The notes under the pieces were generated by a model. The model saw only the letters and a list, made by a program, of their open reading frames with translations. It did no database searches and was not told the origin of the DNA. Made by a program: the position numbers and the translations under genes. DNA of 64,000 bases from Deltaproteobacteria bacterium (lineage in GTDB: Bacteria; Myxococcota; Myxococcia; Myxococcales; 40CM-4-68-19). Shown piece by piece: positions 5,525 to 11,253 of the stretch (position 1 is its first letter; each line of letters begins with the position of its first letter). The stretch spans positions 1 to 64,000 of the forward strand of contig VBLC01000061.1 in the NCBI GenBank assembly GCA_005879315.1, read 5' to 3'.

Positions 5525-6079
5525 TCACCCTTCCTTGGCCGCCGTCCTTCCTTCGAAGTAGTCGAGCGCGCCGGGATGGAAGGGGATGGGCGCCGGGCCC
5601 TGCAGCGAGCGCTTCTTCGCCAGCGGTCCTTTCTCGCGAGACTCGACCAGGGCCTGTGCGATGTCGTACGCCCGCTGCCGCGCGCAGCCCTCGAGCACGA
5701 CGAGCAGATCGCCGCCCAGCACCGCCAGCGCGCGCAGCGGCACCTTGTCTTCCTCGGCGAATCTGCCGCGCCCCTCGAGCGCCTCGAGGGCTTCGGCCGC
5801 GGGGAGCAGCCCCACCTGGAGCTGGCCGGTGCTCAAGAGCTTCACGACCTCGACCGGCGACCTCGCCGCCGCCGGGACCGCCTTGGTCTGCGGCCAGCGC
5901 GCCGCGATGGCCGAGGCGACGGCGGAGGCGATCGCGAGCGCCCCCGGCCGCGCCTCGTCGGTGACGACGACCAGGTGCGTCGCCCGATACACGTACCACT
6001 GACGGTATGGTGAATGGCCGGGCAAGAGCGCGGCGGCCGCTCCCAGAAGCGAGAGCGCGAGAAGCCTGCGTTTACTCAC
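5525..6079 (-). CDS. TAXI-type solute-binding-like protein, short
   Basis: The product is 184 aa with an N-terminal hydrophobic export signal (LLALSLLGAAAALL). The region VEVVKLLSTGQLQVGLLPA and the C-terminal IPFHPGALDYFEG resemble TAXI-family TRAP transporter binding proteins, but the protein is roughly half the usual ~320 aa. The GTG start overlaps the end of the acetamidase gene by 8 bp, so the two are translationally coupled. No TRAP membrane subunits are nearby. It may be a degenerate binding protein or an accessory factor for the exported amidase. Confidence 0.5.
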   Translation of the reverse strand: MSKRRLLALSLLGAAAALLPGHSPYRQWYVYRATHLVVVTDEARPGALAIASAVASAIAARWPQTKAVPAAARSPVEVVKLLSTGQLQVGLLPAAEALEALEGRGRFAEEDKVPLRALAVLGGDLLVVLEGCARQRAYDIAQALVESREKGPLAKKRSLQGPAPIPFHPGALDYFEGRTAAKEG

Positions 6080-7388
6080 CGGGCCCCCGGAAGACGTCGA
6101 GCTGGAGGAAGTTCGACACCACGTAGTTGGGCACGTCCACCAGGTTGCTGATGTGGAGATCGCAGGCGACGCTGCAGAGGAGGTACGCCTGCTCCGCGGT
6201 CAAGGGCGATGGCGCCGGCGAAGTCGGTCCGGTCAGGAGGGCGATCATCTTGAGCAGCGCGTCGCGCGCGGCCAGCGTCACGTCCTCCGACTCGTTCCTC
6301 AGCGGGGGCAGCAGGAGGAAGGCGGAGTTCACGTCGATCCAGTGCTCCGGCGCCATGACGACGCCGGCGGGCTTTACCGGAATGCCCATGGTGGCGACGA
6401 AGTTGTCCGGCGCGAGCTCCCGGAGGACGCCGGCGCGGTTGCTCTCGAACCGGGGCCAGTTGTTCAAGGCCGCAGCCTGGCCTTTGCGGACCTCGACCTT
6501 CACCGTGACGATCGCGTTCATCTCGATGGCGGTGCCGGAGACCTCGCCGTCCCCTTGAGCCCAGTGCACGTCGCCGATGGACAGCCCGCAACCCTCCTCG
6601 ATGAAGCAGGGGAAGAGCAGCGTCGTCCCCTTCACCATCTGCTTCACGTCCGTATTCCCGCCGTTCTCGCGCGGAGGAATGGTGCGCAGGCAGCGGTCTT
6701 TCGCGGAGCCATGAGGGCCGCAGAGGTTAGAGGGCACCGCGTCTCTGGGCTCCGGAGGGAGAACGAAACCTTGCTTGGCTCGAAGCTCCTCCTCTCGAGT
6801 GAAGGCGGTTTCGATCTCGGGCCCGCCCAGCTCCACGCCGATGGTGCCGGCGAATCCATGCAGCGGCAGCCGGACGCCAGGGAGATCGCGCGAGGTCGCA
6901 AAGCGCGTCTTGCCGTCGCTCTCCAGAGGGCCAAGCTCCCAGTGCACGATGGCGGGGTCGGTGAAGACGTCGCGGAGGAAGCCGAACCCCGGGACCGCCA
7001 CGGTGTAGCCGAAGTGATCGGGCCCGGGGCCGACGTCGATCATTGTCACGGCGAGCACGTCGCCGCGCTTCGCGCCTCTGACGTACAGAGGGCCAGTGAG
7101 CGGATGGATGAGGTTCAGGTTGGCGGCCGCGACGGTGGCCGGCGTGGACCTGCGGTTGAAGGGATTGTCGAACGCGTCGCGGGTTTCGAAGATCACCGTG
7201 TCGCCGGAGTTGACTTCGGCGGCCGCGGGGATGTCGGGGTGCCAGCGGTTGTGACAGGTGCGAAGCCGATCATCCGCACAAGGCACCGGCACATCGTTGG
7301 CGTAGGTGATGGGGATCCGGACCTGCTTCGCAAACGACGGCCCGGCGGCTGCGAGCAGCGCAGCGGCCGTGATCAGGAGGCTCTTCAT
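6072..7388 (-). CDS. Exported acetamidase/formamidase family protein
   Basis: This FmdA/AmdA-type hydrolase acts on short amides to give ammonia and a carboxylate. The start at 7388 gives a clear signal peptide (MKSLLITAAALLAAAGPSFA) and a good ribosome site (GGAAAGG). Family landmarks include the HPLTGPLYVRGAKRGD segment, the GDVHWAQGDGEVSGTAIE motif and a Cys-containing NLCGPHG region. Most family members are cytoplasmic, so periplasmic export is notable. Mature length fits the family. It is followed, with overlap, by the TAXI-like gene. Substrate is not predictable. Confidence 0.8.
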   Translation of the reverse strand: MKSLLITAAALLAAAGPSFAKQVRIPITYANDVPVPCADDRLRTCHNRWHPDIPAAAEVNSGDTVIFETRDAFDNPFNRRSTPATVAAANLNLIHPLTGPLYVRGAKRGDVLAVTMIDVGPGPDHFGYTVAVPGFGFLRDVFTDPAIVHWELGPLESDGKTRFATSRDLPGVRLPLHGFAGTIGVELGGPEIETAFTREEELRAKQGFVLPPEPRDAVPSNLCGPHGSAKDRCLRTIPPRENGGNTDVKQMVKGTTLLFPCFIEEGCGLSIGDVHWAQGDGEVSGTAIEMNAIVTVKVEVRKGQAAALNNWPRFESNRAGVLRELAPDNFVATMGIPVKPAGVVMAPEHWIDVNSAFLLLPPLRNESEDVTLAARDALLKMIALLTGPTSPAPSPLTAEQAYLLCSVACDLHISNLVDVPNYVVSNFLQLDVFRGPGE

Positions 7389-7814
7389 AGGTCGCCTTTC
7401 CCCGCGCGAAATCGCGCGGACGGGCGGTGTCGGCGACGGAAGGCACGCGGAGAACCTTCGCCCCCGCCCCAAAAGGCGAAGCTGGGCGCCCCCATACGCC
7501 GTCACGACGAAGGTTGTCAACGGCGGAGGAGCTCGCGCTCAGTTGCCCGCCTTCCAATACTCCAGCTTGCACTGTACTTCCTCCATCGACGCGGCACGTG
7601 CCGGCGGCAGTTGAGCTCGGAATGCTCGATAAGTGCGGGTGGCAAACCGACGCACAGCAGTCTCTATATCTCCCAATCAAGTCAGGCGCACGGTACGGAC
7701 ACGTGGCAGCTTGATATGGGCGAAGTACGCTTGCGCGCGTCGCCCCGGCTGGAAATCGGCCAACTTGAAAAGGCGGACATCCTGCAAACGCTTCGCGACG
7801 GAAACTGCCGGCCT
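7389..7814. other. Intergenic gap, no gene seen
   Basis: These 426 bp separate two minus-strand genes. I see no convincing ORF, RNA fold or strong repeat. The segment upstream of 7388 should hold the acetamidase promoter, but no clear -35/-10 pair stands out. Confidence 0.4.
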
Positions 7815-9098
7815 TTATTTCCACCCCACGCGGATCCGGCCGTAGAACGGAAAAGGCTGGTCGTCGGCTGCGGAATCGATGGCGATGGGAGAATCCTGGT
7901 CCGCGCCTGCGCGGGTCTGCAGCGCCGGATAAGCATCCACCAGCGGCGGATGATCGGCCTGCAGCGCCCGTGCGTTCGGAGCATTGAACTGATTGATGAG
8001 CGTCTGCCGCACGTCGATGGAACGTCCCAGCTGCGCCGAAGCGCTCGCGCTCAGCTGGTCCCAGGGCCAGTCCGCTCCCGCCCAGGCAAGCGGCATCGGC
8101 GAGTAGCTCGCGTCCATCGTCGCGACGAATCGCACGCAGCCGCTCGTCTCGTAGCGGCTCGCCTGCACGCGCACGCCGGTGCGCGCGGTGAATCGCCAGC
8201 TCGCATCCATCGTCGCGCCGGCCGGCCGCGGCAAGGGCGCGCAGACGAGCCAGTCGAGCCGGTCGAAGCGGTTGGGCACCATCAGCCCGTGCGTGCTCAG
8301 GCGATCGTCGTTGTAGAGCAACGCGTGCAGGACCGCGCCCGCGAGCGCATTGGAGAACGGCACGCTGGCAGAGTCGCCCAGCCGCTGGGTGTTGCCGAAG
8401 TCGGTCGCCAGCGCGACGTTGGGCTGGAAGAGCAGCGCGGAGCGGTACGGCACCACCACCGCCGCCGCCACCGTGCTGCGCGCGTCCGGCGAGCGCGCGT
8501 AATGAAGGAAGGTGGGCGGGTGCATCTCCGCTCCGTACGGCGGATGGCCGCAGTCGAGCACCCAGACCCCTTTCATCAGGACGCGGTCGCCAGGCAGCGG
8601 CGAGAAGCCGAGCGCGTCGCGCGGAAAGATCCGCCGCTCCACCTCGGTGTGCAGCGGCGTCCCCTGCGCGCCGCTCCCCTCGAAGGAAAGGAAGGCGTAC
8701 GGCGCATCGAGCTGCACGTCGCCGTCGACGTCGAGGCCGAAGGGATGGTCGCCGAGCACGTCGTCGGTGGAGTCGTCGGCGCCCACCAGCGCGCCGGCGA
8801 GGAAGAACTCCGGCTGGCTCAAGGTCGGCCGCGACGCGAAGGGCCCTGAGACGATGGGCGCCCAGTGCCACGGCACCTGGACGTCGCTGATGCCGTAGAA
8901 GAAAAGCTCGCCGATGTAGACGCGCGTCGGATCCTGCGCGCAGGAGTGCACGTCGGGACCGGCGAAGCCGTGAAGAAGCGAACGATTCGCATCGGAGGCA
9001 GCCGAGCCGGACCAGGAAAGGACAGGCCGGTCGGCCGGGATGGAAAGCCCGCTCGAACAACCGCAGGCGAGAAGGAGGAAGAGCGACTGCCCCCGCAT
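7815..9098 (-). CDS. Lipoprotein of unknown function, 427 aa
   Basis: The ATG at 9098 is chosen because it begins a lipoprotein signal: MRGQSLFLLLACGCSSG, with lipobox LLAC and the lipidated Cys near residue 12. The mature protein is rich in aromatic residues and Asp, has several isolated Cys, and shows no domain I recognise. There are repeated W/Y-containing segments and a long Ala/Ser stretch, compatible with a beta-rich secreted protein. It is divergent from the cyclase genes, with about 107 bp between starts. Confidence 0.6.
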   Translation of the reverse strand: MRGQSLFLLLACGCSSGLSIPADRPVLSWSGSAASDANRSLLHGFAGPDVHSCAQDPTRVYIGELFFYGISDVQVPWHWAPIVSGPFASRPTLSQPEFFLAGALVGADDSTDDVLGDHPFGLDVDGDVQLDAPYAFLSFEGSGAQGTPLHTEVERRIFPRDALGFSPLPGDRVLMKGVWVLDCGHPPYGAEMHPPTFLHYARSPDARSTVAAAVVVPYRSALLFQPNVALATDFGNTQRLGDSASVPFSNALAGAVLHALLYNDDRLSTHGLMVPNRFDRLDWLVCAPLPRPAGATMDASWRFTARTGVRVQASRYETSGCVRFVATMDASYSPMPLAWAGADWPWDQLSASASAQLGRSIDVRQTLINQFNAPNARALQADHPPLVDAYPALQTRAGADQDSPIAIDSAADDQPFPFYGRIRVGWK

Positions 9099-9205
9099 CG
9101 CCGCAGGATACCGCAGGACCCGTATGTTGCACTCATGTCGAAACGTTGATAGCTGCACGCCGCGGGGGATGGGCGCCAGCCCGCGCCCGCCCCTACCTTT
9201 GCCCA

Positions 9206-9946
9206 GTGCGGACGCGCAATCTCGCAGTGGTCTTCGCCGGCATCTGCGGCTACGCCGAGCGGCTCGGCGCGCAGAGCTGGGAGCAGAGCCAGCGCATGCT
9301 GCGCGTCCACGAGGCGCTGGTCGATCCGGTCTTCCGCGCTTTCGGCGGCCGGCGCATCAAGCAGATCGGCGGCACGCTCCTCTTCGTTTTCGACTCGCCC
9401 ACCGACGCCGTCCTCTGCGCGGCCGCGCTGCTCGAGCGGGTGGCGCGCTACGACGCCGAGGTCCCCGAGGCGGAGCGCCTCGACATCCGCGCCGGAATCC
9501 ATCTCGGCGAAGTGCGGCTGGAGAAGGGCGACGTCTTCGGAGAGCCGGTCAACATCGCGGCGCGCATCGAGGCGCTGGCCGGCCCGGGCGAGGCGCTCTT
9601 CGGCGAAGCCGTCTGGCTCTCGATGAACCGCGCCGAGGTGCGCGCCGAGGACAGAGGGGAGCGCAGACTGAAGGGCGTCCCCGAGGCGGTGCGCATCTTC
9701 CGGCTGGTGGAATCGCTGCGGCTACTGCCCGACGCGGGGCCGCTGCCCGATCCGGCCAAGCTGGAGGAGAGCAGCGAAGTCCTCCGCCACCTGCGCGAGG
9801 CGTACCGCGCCGCCTGCCGCTCTCTCGAGGAGGCGTGGCCCTACGTCCCCGACCGCGCGCGCGTCTTCGTCGGCGCCGGCCTCGCCGCGATGGTGGCGGT
9901 GGCGGCGGCCTTCTTCGCGCTGGCGCGCCTGGGAGCGCTGCCGTGA
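9206..9946 (+). CDS. Class III nucleotide cyclase subunit, C2-like, lacks metal aspartates
   Basis: The product is 246 aa from GTG 9206: a cytoplasmic cyclase homology domain (about 5-175), a linker, and one C-terminal membrane helix (about 223-245). Both metal-binding aspartates are replaced (FAGI, G12; IGG, G56). In contrast K52 (IKQIG), D109 (GDVFGEPVN), N116 and R120 (VNIAAR) are kept; these correspond to the adenine-specifying Lys/Asp and the transition-state Asn/Arg supplied by the C2 half of mammalian adenylyl cyclase. Alone it should be inactive as a homodimer. It overlaps the next gene by 4 bp (GTGA), and that gene has the reciprocal pattern. Confidence 0.85.
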   Translation: MRTRNLAVVFAGICGYAERLGAQSWEQSQRMLRVHEALVDPVFRAFGGRRIKQIGGTLLFVFDSPTDAVLCAAALLERVARYDAEVPEAERLDIRAGIHLGEVRLEKGDVFGEPVNIAARIEALAGPGEALFGEAVWLSMNRAEVRAEDRGERRLKGVPEAVRIFRLVESLRLLPDAGPLPDPAKLEESSEVLRHLREAYRAACRSLEEAWPYVPDRARVFVGAGLAAMVAVAAAFFALARLGALP

Positions 9947-11253
9947 GCACCGCTCGCAATCTCGTCTTGCTGCTTTCCGACATGAAGGGCTTCACCGCCC
10001 GCACCAGCAGGCAGACGCGCGAGGAGAACGAGCGGATGCTTGCGCTCCACGATGCCCTGCTCTTGCCCGTCGTGCGCGGCTTCGGCGGGCGCAAGGTGAA
10101 GGCCATCGGCGATGCGCTGCTCGCCGCCTTCGAATCGCCGACCGACGCCGTGCTCTGTGCCATGGCGCTGCAGGACCGGCTCGCCGCCTTCAACGACGCC
10201 GCCGAGGAGAAGGAGCGCATCGAGGTGCGCGTCTCGCTCAGCCAGGGCGAAGTGCGCCTGCAGAAGGGCGACGTGCACGGCGAGGCGGTCCAGCTCGCGC
10301 TTCAGGCGGGCGCCCTCGCCGACGCTGGCGAGGTGGTGCTGACCGACGCCGTCTACCTCTCGATGAACAAGAGCGAGGCCCCCACCGAGATCCTCTGCGA
10401 GCGGCCGTTGCAGGGCGGCGGCGCGACCAAGCTCCGGCGCGCGCTCAGGAGCAGCGACGCGCGTGTGCCTTACGGCGGCCGGGCGCTGGCCCGGCTGGGG
10501 CGGCTGCCCGATCCGTCGCGGCGTGTGCAGCTCGCCCGGCTGATCGATCGCGTCGCTTCCTTCGCGCGCCGTCGGATCGTCTGGGCGGCGGCCGGCCTCT
10601 TGCTGGTGGCGGCCGCGGCGGGCGATCGCGGCTCTCGGGCGCAGCAGGAGCCGCTCCGGCGCGCGGCCGAGCTGCTCGAGTTGCGACAGCCTCTCGCCGC
10701 GCTGGCCGAGCTCGATCGGCTGGCCGACACGCCGCGCTCGCATGACCCCAGGGTGCAAGTCGTCCGCGGCCGGGCGGAACATGCGCTGGGACAGCTGGGA
10801 ATGGCTTTCTCCGATTTCGCCGCGGCTGCCGAGCAGGACCCGCGCGCGCTCGACCCGCAGGCCATCGCCGCGCTGGCCGACGAGCTCGACGCCGAGAGCT
10901 TCCCCTCCGTCTGGCGGCCCGCGCTGGTCCGGCTGCTCGGCGAGACGGTCGGCCGCGAATCCGCCACGGCGGTGCGGCCCCTGCTCGGCTCGCCTCTCGC
11001 CCGCACCCGCGATGACGCGCTCGAGATCCTGGAGCTTTCGGGGGCGGCCACGAGCGACGATCGCATCAAGGTGGCGGCGCGGGACCTCGCCGATGAACGC
11101 GCCTCCTGCGCGAGCCATCGCGATGCGGTCCGGCGGCTGGCCGCGGCCGGCGGCACAGAGGCGGAGCGGATGCTCGAGCAGACCGCGTGGAAAGGCGGCT
11201 GCGGCGGCGCGCAGGCGCGCGATGCCCTGCGCCGGCTGCGCCGCAAGGAGTGA
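9943..11253 (+). CDS. Class III nucleotide cyclase subunit, C1-like, with periplasmic helical-repeat domain
   Basis: The product is 436 aa. The N-terminal cyclase domain keeps both metal aspartates, D13 (LLSDMKGFT) and D57 (KAIGDALL), but the catalytic Asn and Arg are both Gln (Q117 and Q121 in AVQLALQAG), and the LKG lysine seen in its partner is LQG. This is the C1-like counterpart of the preceding gene. One membrane helix (about 206-220) is followed by a ~210 aa domain of helical pairs resembling TPR/HEAT repeats, which would lie in the periplasm and could sense a ligand or protein. The GTG start overlaps the upstream stop, suggesting coupled, roughly equimolar synthesis. Confidence 0.85.
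   Translation: MSTARNLVLLLSDMKGFTARTSRQTREENERMLALHDALLLPVVRGFGGRKVKAIGDALLAAFESPTDAVLCAMALQDRLAAFNDAAEEKERIEVRVSLSQGEVRLQKGDVHGEAVQLALQAGALADAGEVVLTDAVYLSMNKSEAPTEILCERPLQGGGATKLRRALRSSDARVPYGGRALARLGRLPDPSRRVQLARLIDRVASFARRRIVWAAAGLLLVAAAAGDRGSRAQQEPLRRAAELLELRQPLAALAELDRLADTPRSHDPRVQVVRGRAEHALGQLGMAFSDFAAAAEQDPRALDPQAIAALADELDAESFPSVWRPALVRLLGETVGRESATAVRPLLGSPLARTRDDALEILELSGAATSDDRIKVAARDLADERASCASHRDAVRRLAAAGGTEAERMLEQTAWKGGCGGAQARDALRRLRRKE

Follow-up and report, generated by a model that had tools for sequence, protein, structure and literature searches.

The two overlapping class III CHD genes at positions 9206–11253 on the forward strand of the window (the whole 64,000-nucleotide stretch of contig VBLC01000061.1 that was analysed) are likely to encode an obligate heterodimeric, membrane-anchored class III adenylyl cyclase with one active site. 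Gene 1 specifies a C2-like half and gene 2 a C1-like half, and the two reading frames share 4 bp. The features of the pair are as follows:

9206–9946, forward strand: gene 1, the C2-like half, with a CHD and a C-terminal membrane helix (246 aa, GTG start)
9206–9718, forward strand: CHD of gene 1, aa 1–171 (PF00211; profile match 1–171)
9863–9919, forward strand: membrane helix of gene 1, aa 220–238 (hydropathy, KD 2.34)
9943–9946, forward strand: GTGA, the overlap of the gene 1 stop and the gene 2 start (sequence)
9943–11253, forward strand: gene 2, the C1-like half, with a CHD, a membrane helix and a C-terminal helical domain (436 aa, GTG start)
9949–10461, forward strand: CHD of gene 2, aa 3–173 (PF00211; profile match 3–173; Foldseek matches to Ma1120 and other CHDs)
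10576–10626, forward strand: probable membrane helix of gene 2, aa 212–228, short and Ala-rich, with an Arg-rich cytoplasmic side
10648–11250, forward strand: C-terminal helical domain of gene 2, aa 236–436, probably periplasmic (all-helical AlphaFold model; HEAT/TPR-like scores in relatives)

The initial annotation had described overlapping class III cyclase genes, and this holds: both proteins match Pfam PF00211 above the cut-off (E-values of 2.5e-13 for gene 1 and 6.8e-9 for gene 2), and thus belong to the class III CHDs by profile, and the GTGA overlap lies at 9943–9946. The start of gene 1 is kept in relatives. In terms of fold, the AlphaFold model of gene 2 (pLDDT 73.5) and both domains of a natural fusion of the two genes match CHD structures, with Foldseek aligning the CHD of gene 2 to Ma1120 and other cyclases. 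A single gene split by a frameshift or sequencing artefact was considered and ruled out, because the 4-bp overlap, in the general form NTGA, recurs in the split pairs of six other genomes (G001, G003, G004, G005, G008, and G010). The membrane helix that had been assigned to each protein is clear in gene 1 (KD 2.3), and weaker in gene 2, where it spans 17 residues with a KD of 1.86. The second protein had also been given a periplasmic helical-repeat domain, of which the helical character stands, the C-terminal part of the model being all-helical; as to repeats, a Pfam search of gene 2 itself returned no match, and the counterpart domain in its relatives scores as HEAT/TPR, mostly under the cut-offs. 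Arg residues ahead of the short hydrophobic segment suggest that the region downstream of it lies outside the cytoplasm. Identification of this domain with a known sensor was tried and abandoned, because the CHD dominates what the gene 2 model matches in the PDB.

The positions that carry the catalytic residues were assigned by alignment:

9239–9241, forward strand: gene 1 Gly12, replacing metal Asp Me1 (FAGI)
9359–9361, forward strand: gene 1 Lys52, base-specifying, kept
9371–9373, forward strand: gene 1 Gly56, replacing metal Asp Me2 (IGGT); Gly in every readable homologue
9530–9532, forward strand: gene 1 Asp109, base-specifying, adenine type, kept
9551–9553, forward strand: gene 1 Asn116, transition state, kept
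9563–9565, forward strand: gene 1 Arg120, transition state, kept
9979–9981, forward strand: gene 2 Asp13 (Me1), kept
10111–10113, forward strand: gene 2 Asp57 (Me2), kept
10291–10293, forward strand: gene 2 Gln117, replacing the catalytic Asn; Gln in 7 of 7 homologues
10303–10305, forward strand: gene 2 Gln121, replacing the catalytic Arg; Glu in four homologues and Arg in two early-branching ones

In the order Me1-K-Me2-D-N-R, gene 1 reads G-K-G-D-N-R and gene 2 D-K-D-D-Q-Q, exactly as the initial annotation had proposed in stating that the first gene lacks both metal-binding Asp residues and keeps Lys, Asp, Asn, and Arg, while the second keeps both Asp and has Gln for Asn and Arg. The seventh position, the Lys of the LKG motif, is likewise retained in gene 1 and replaced in gene 2, where the predicted LQG was found; across homologues it is Lys in six and Arg in one of the gene 1 proteins, and variable among those of gene 2, with Lys in none of seven. 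Lys and Asp at the base positions of class III cyclases indicate ATP, and this adenylyl-type pair on the C2-like half (K52 and D109) is invariant among gene 1 homologues. According to the alignment, all six catalytic residues would come together at one interface only in a gene 1–gene 2 heterodimer, and in neither homodimer.

Class III active sites are formed at a dimer interface with residues from both subunits, and in mammalian adenylyl cyclases (AC) and sGC one site is complete while the other is degenerate and has been suggested to be regulatory; homodimers of sGC alpha or beta are inactive because the residues are divided between the subunits (PMC3591389). By the same logic, gene 1 and gene 2 together would build one complete site, which neither homodimer can. 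Gene 2 would supply the two metal-binding Asp residues at the interface, and gene 1 the adenine-specifying Lys and Asp as well as the transition-state Asn and Arg, so as to complete one ATP site. The mirror site, with a gene 1 share that lacks metal ligands and a gene 2 share that lacks Asn and Arg, would be dead, and may be a pocket for regulation, as the forskolin site is. The overlapping stop and start codons would favour co-translation of the subunits, and tuning of the dimer would fall to the probably periplasmic helical domain at the C-terminus of gene 2. We infer dimerisation, activity, cAMP as the product, and sensing from the sequences. The genome holds 20 matches to cNMP-binding domains in a profile search, and the corresponding proteins are possible candidate effectors.

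A different assignment of roles would make gene 2 a homodimer of low activity, with the metals present and Gln as a substitute, and leave gene 1 a purely regulatory protein. Gene 2 does retain Lys53 and Asp110 beside both metal Asp residues, and non-canonical residues are tolerated by some bacterial cyclases (mycobacterial Rv0386/Rv1900c), but the loss of Asn in 7 of 7 and of Arg in 5 of 7 gene 2 homologues, together with the strict conservation of the Asn/Arg half of gene 1 that an active partner requires, makes a functional gene 2 homodimer highly improbable.

The case for the heterodimer gains from its conservation. Both genes were traced in 10 of the 12 genomes of their myxobacterial family, and neither was found in the two genus g4 genomes among these 12. 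Adjacent pairs are readable in G001, G003, G005, G008, and G010; in G002, G004, and G006 the genes are cut by contig ends, so only part of the residue pattern can be read there. Among the readable copies, which are few, related by descent, and mostly from MAGs, K, D, N, and R are kept in 8 of 8 gene 1 homologues and Me2 is Gly in all eight, with Me1 being Gly in six, Ser in one, and Asp in one. In the gene 2 homologues both metal Asp residues, Lys, and Asp are kept (7/7), Gln takes the place of Asn (7/7), and Glu or Gln that of Arg (5/7). The outcome that the initial annotation had named as refuting its claim, homologues without covariation, is therefore not seen, the halves being complementary wherever the residues are readable. 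Since the identical split recurs in relatives down to approximately 50% identity, it exceeds chance, and as judged from the aligned homologues the residue split is a conserved pattern rather than chance decay. In G008, gene 1 lacks its 5′ end, so that the Me1 strand is missing, through either a rearrangement or an assembly fault. Around position 2300 of L047 in this genome the truncated gene is joined to the apparent end of an ABC permease gene, by rearrangement or misassembly.

A contig scan for gene 2 returned close relatives only in deltaproteobacterial/myxobacterial MAGs. In the relatives, the pair is preceded by prfC (RF3) and followed by a Gfo/Idh/MocA oxidoreductase gene and by genes that we take, from their sequences, to encode an SDR and a B12-type ribonucleotide reductase. 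This conserved synteny supports vertical inheritance of the pair. In the window, unlike in the relatives, the pair does not have prfC as its immediate upstream neighbour. The position is instead occupied, at 6072–9158, by an acetamidase/formamidase-family gene and an ORF without a Pfam match, which is a local rearrangement in the window genome. The neighbours were also considered as operon partners that might hint at function; they point to vertical inheritance and suggest no pathway.

Selection on the two genes was assessed from rough counts with a simple method, which gave pairwise dN/dS values of 0.11–0.68 for gene 1 and 0.29–0.67 for gene 2; both clades are under purifying selection. The pattern of decay is reciprocal also at the level of half-domains. 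Relative to 32 canonical relatives, a reference set picked for carrying the full site, 39 columns are near-invariant. Of these, the metal-binding half holds 18, of which gene 1 has changed 9 and gene 2 has changed 4, and the Asn/Arg half holds 15, of which 2 are changed in gene 1 and 12 in gene 2. The contrast between the genes is significant (Fisher p = 0.006), and persists when the catalytic columns are removed (permutation p = 0.0013). This reciprocal decay would mean that each protein is conserved in the half that serves its share of the active site, and relaxed in the remaining half.

Trees of the CHDs place gene 1 and gene 2 in separate clades, each with 100/99 support. The earliest branch of the gene 2 clade is genus g3 (G008 and G010), and that of the gene 1 clade is G010, whose pair is in an intermediate state, DKGDNR with DKDDQR, in which each subunit has lost one residue and the two are still complementary. 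From these basal positions and intermediate residues, two steps are reconstructed: gene 1 lost Me2 and gene 2 lost Asn, and later gene 1 lost Me1 and gene 2 lost Arg. Gene 1 of G010 also retains the membrane helix and HEAT-like domain of complete cyclases, while gene 1 of the window genus stops after the membrane helix. A paralogue on contig C125 has the complete CHD-TM-repeat architecture, the residues DKDDNR, and 53% identity to gene 1. Most likely, a complete CHD-TM-repeat cyclase, of the kind still present as this paralogue, was duplicated, and reciprocal loss then gave rise to the pair. An AU test does not reject gene 1 and gene 2 as a single clade (p = 0.069), so that a simple tandem duplication is one possible origin.

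Could the pair be a duplicate caught early in relaxed decay, its complementarity a coincidence? By our own simple combinatorics, two losses in each gene would be complementary by chance with a probability of about 0.05, and the truncated gene 1 of G008 fits such decay. Against this, the genes are under purifying selection and the kept residues are invariant, the intermediate state in G010 is matched between the subunits, a second complementary pair exists in another family (G164), and reciprocal decay extends beyond the catalytic columns. We therefore regard coincidence as extremely improbable, and return to an obligate heterodimer as the preferred reading.

A natural fusion, known from the single MAG G007, bears on the partnership. 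Both CHDs lie in one open frame of 611 aa, with residues SKGDNR followed by DKDDQE; the membrane helix of gene 1 is gone and its CHD is joined in frame to gene 2, so that the C2-like domain comes first. The AlphaFold model of the fusion, built with alignment rows for the second domain alone, has well-modelled individual domains (pLDDT 84.8) and a pTM of 0.42. In the PDB it best matches soluble tandem C1-C2 chains of AC9, closely followed by human sAC, at an rmsd of 18–19 Å, which implies a placement of the domains that differs from the active dimer. The wreath dimer was not reproduced by this model, made from an alignment without first-domain rows.

With respect to partnership, the subunits might instead be active with other proteins, such as the complete C125 paralogue or another cyclase. 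That paralogue is present in the same genome, and kinase-linked half-domains coexist with complete cyclases in other families. The two genes, however, overlap and are inherited together, ten genomes having both and two neither, and the gene 1–gene 2 fusion and the matched stepwise losses point to each other as partners; activity with other partners is thus very unlikely. A further match of the fusion model, over both CHD regions, is PDB entry 6yii, a class III cyclase-like ATP-binding protein from P. aeruginosa. This match, and the fact that the phylum has many degenerate class III domains, could be taken to mean that both proteins are pseudo-cyclases whose heterodimer binds a nucleotide or a partner and makes no cyclic nucleotide. 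A dead pair is not expected to retain exactly the six residues of one site throughout a family and to lose those of the other site alone, nor to decay reciprocally by half-domain, and we consider pseudo-cyclases unlikely relative to a heterodimer that is catalytically active.

The initial annotation had compared the pair with the C1/C2 division of labour in animal adenylyl cyclases, and the comparison is sound at the level of residues, since metal-binding and transition-state residues are split, were lost reciprocally, and remain so in homologues. As in the mammalian membrane AC, the metal Asp residues and the Lys/Asp/Asn/Arg set reside on separate domains, giving one active and one degenerate site, and the G007 form shares the tandem fusion, AC9 tandem C1-C2 chains being its best PDB matches. 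In most members, however, the pair consists of two overlapping genes with one membrane helix per subunit rather than two sets of six; the fusion has the reversed order, C2-like first, and gene 2 adds a C-terminal helical domain. The two six-helix domains and the C1-before-C2 order of the mammalian family are thus absent, and the pair represents a different class III subfamily that has arisen within myxobacteria. In sGC alpha/beta, too, metal-binding and transition-state subunits are encoded by separate genes, and the homodimers are inactive (PMC3591389). Unlike sGC, the bacterial pair is membrane-anchored, has adenine-type Lys/Asp, and carries no H-NOX, PAS, or coiled coil, PF00211 being the sole domain found; the H-NOX, PAS, and guanine-type residues of the sGC family are lacking.

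The nearest solved relatives, Ma1120, Rv1900c, and S. pomeroyi 3mr7, have the same CHD fold, but they form homodimers in which every chain carries the full set of residues, whereas the pair divides that set. Among myxobacterial proteins, the CHD-TM-repeat cyclases (L054, L017, and the C125 paralogue) have the same architecture and are the nearest unsplit relatives; unlike the pair they carry a complete DKDDNR site on a single chain, and this type of cyclase is likely the ancestral form. Entry 6yii resembles the G007 fusion as a bacterial chain matched across both CHD regions, and differs from the pair in that its depositors describe a cyclase-like, ATP-binding protein.

A comparable arrangement is present in G164, from another family of the same class, where a CHD-TM-TPR/HEAT gene (DKDETA) overlaps by ATGA with a Ser/Thr kinase-CHD gene (SKEDNR). 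By its residues, this is a second adjacent complementary pair of a metal-only and a metal-less domain. It is located at L194 on contig C301 (ORFs 1413–2771 and 1–1470, both on the reverse strand); the kinase-CHD ORF is cut by the end of C301 and seems to continue on C289 (L227). In the tree, the DKDETA domain falls with gene 2 (95/86), and the C1-like lineage may therefore be older than the family; the kinase-linked half sits on a long branch and is not firmly placed.

Other half-site patterns were seen elsewhere. In Myxococcaceae, Ser/Thr kinase-CHD proteins (L130 1524–4082, forward strand; L131, L133, L137, L140, L142) keep both metal Asp residues and have lost Lys, Asp, Asn, and Arg, mostly as DQDxEA, with a complete unlinked cyclase alongside. 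Kinase genes with a degenerate CHD in G045 (L049, EREDDA), G053 (L051, ELEVGA), and G047 (L052, ELEVAA) adjoin or overlap a complete CHD cyclase gene. G012 has a kinase-CHD gene with GKGDNR (L139 3–3422, forward strand) and an unlinked, potentially complementary CHD gene with DKDDHR (L201 2250–3704, forward strand). The window genome contains another cyclase with Asn for the second metal Asp (L002, G000 contig C42; RIKTLGNSY, DKNDNR), and a 1048-aa protein in G155 (L192 2205–5348, reverse strand) has a DKGDNR CHD, in which the second metal Asp is lost.

According to a 2022 review, bacterial class III ACs homodimerise, fused dimeric bacterial species are ‘unknown’, and the advantage of such an arrangement was asked about; it places the origin of asymmetry in animal cyclases, attributed to duplication and fusion, at about 1.5 billion years ago (PMC9552081). 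A search of the open-access literature for a bacterial heterodimeric class III cyclase returned no precedent, and a bacterial C1/C2-type division of labour appears to be undescribed so far. Heterodimeric class III cyclases are already known in eukaryotes; what is new is a bacterial, two-gene, stepwise, and self-fusing version. Entry 6yii tempers the novelty of the fusion, though its title does not say cyclase.

The surviving series comprises complete homodimer-type cyclases, a half-asymmetric pair, fully split pairs, and a tandem fusion. Because intermediates and a fusion coexist in small bacterial proteins, the order of losses and the benefit of a single site become directly testable, as does a regulatory function for the pocket of the dead site, and the pair offers a compact split cyclase for engineering. 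The division of labour recurs in Myxococcota, often with kinase fusion, as in G164 and the Myxococcaceae, which suggests that it may be a general mode of signalling. On balance, we lean towards the broader reading that bacteria evolved a C1/C2 asymmetric cyclase independently, with the steps surviving, and that myxobacteria may signal quite generally through heterodimeric cAMP synthesis, coupled in some cases to a kinase.
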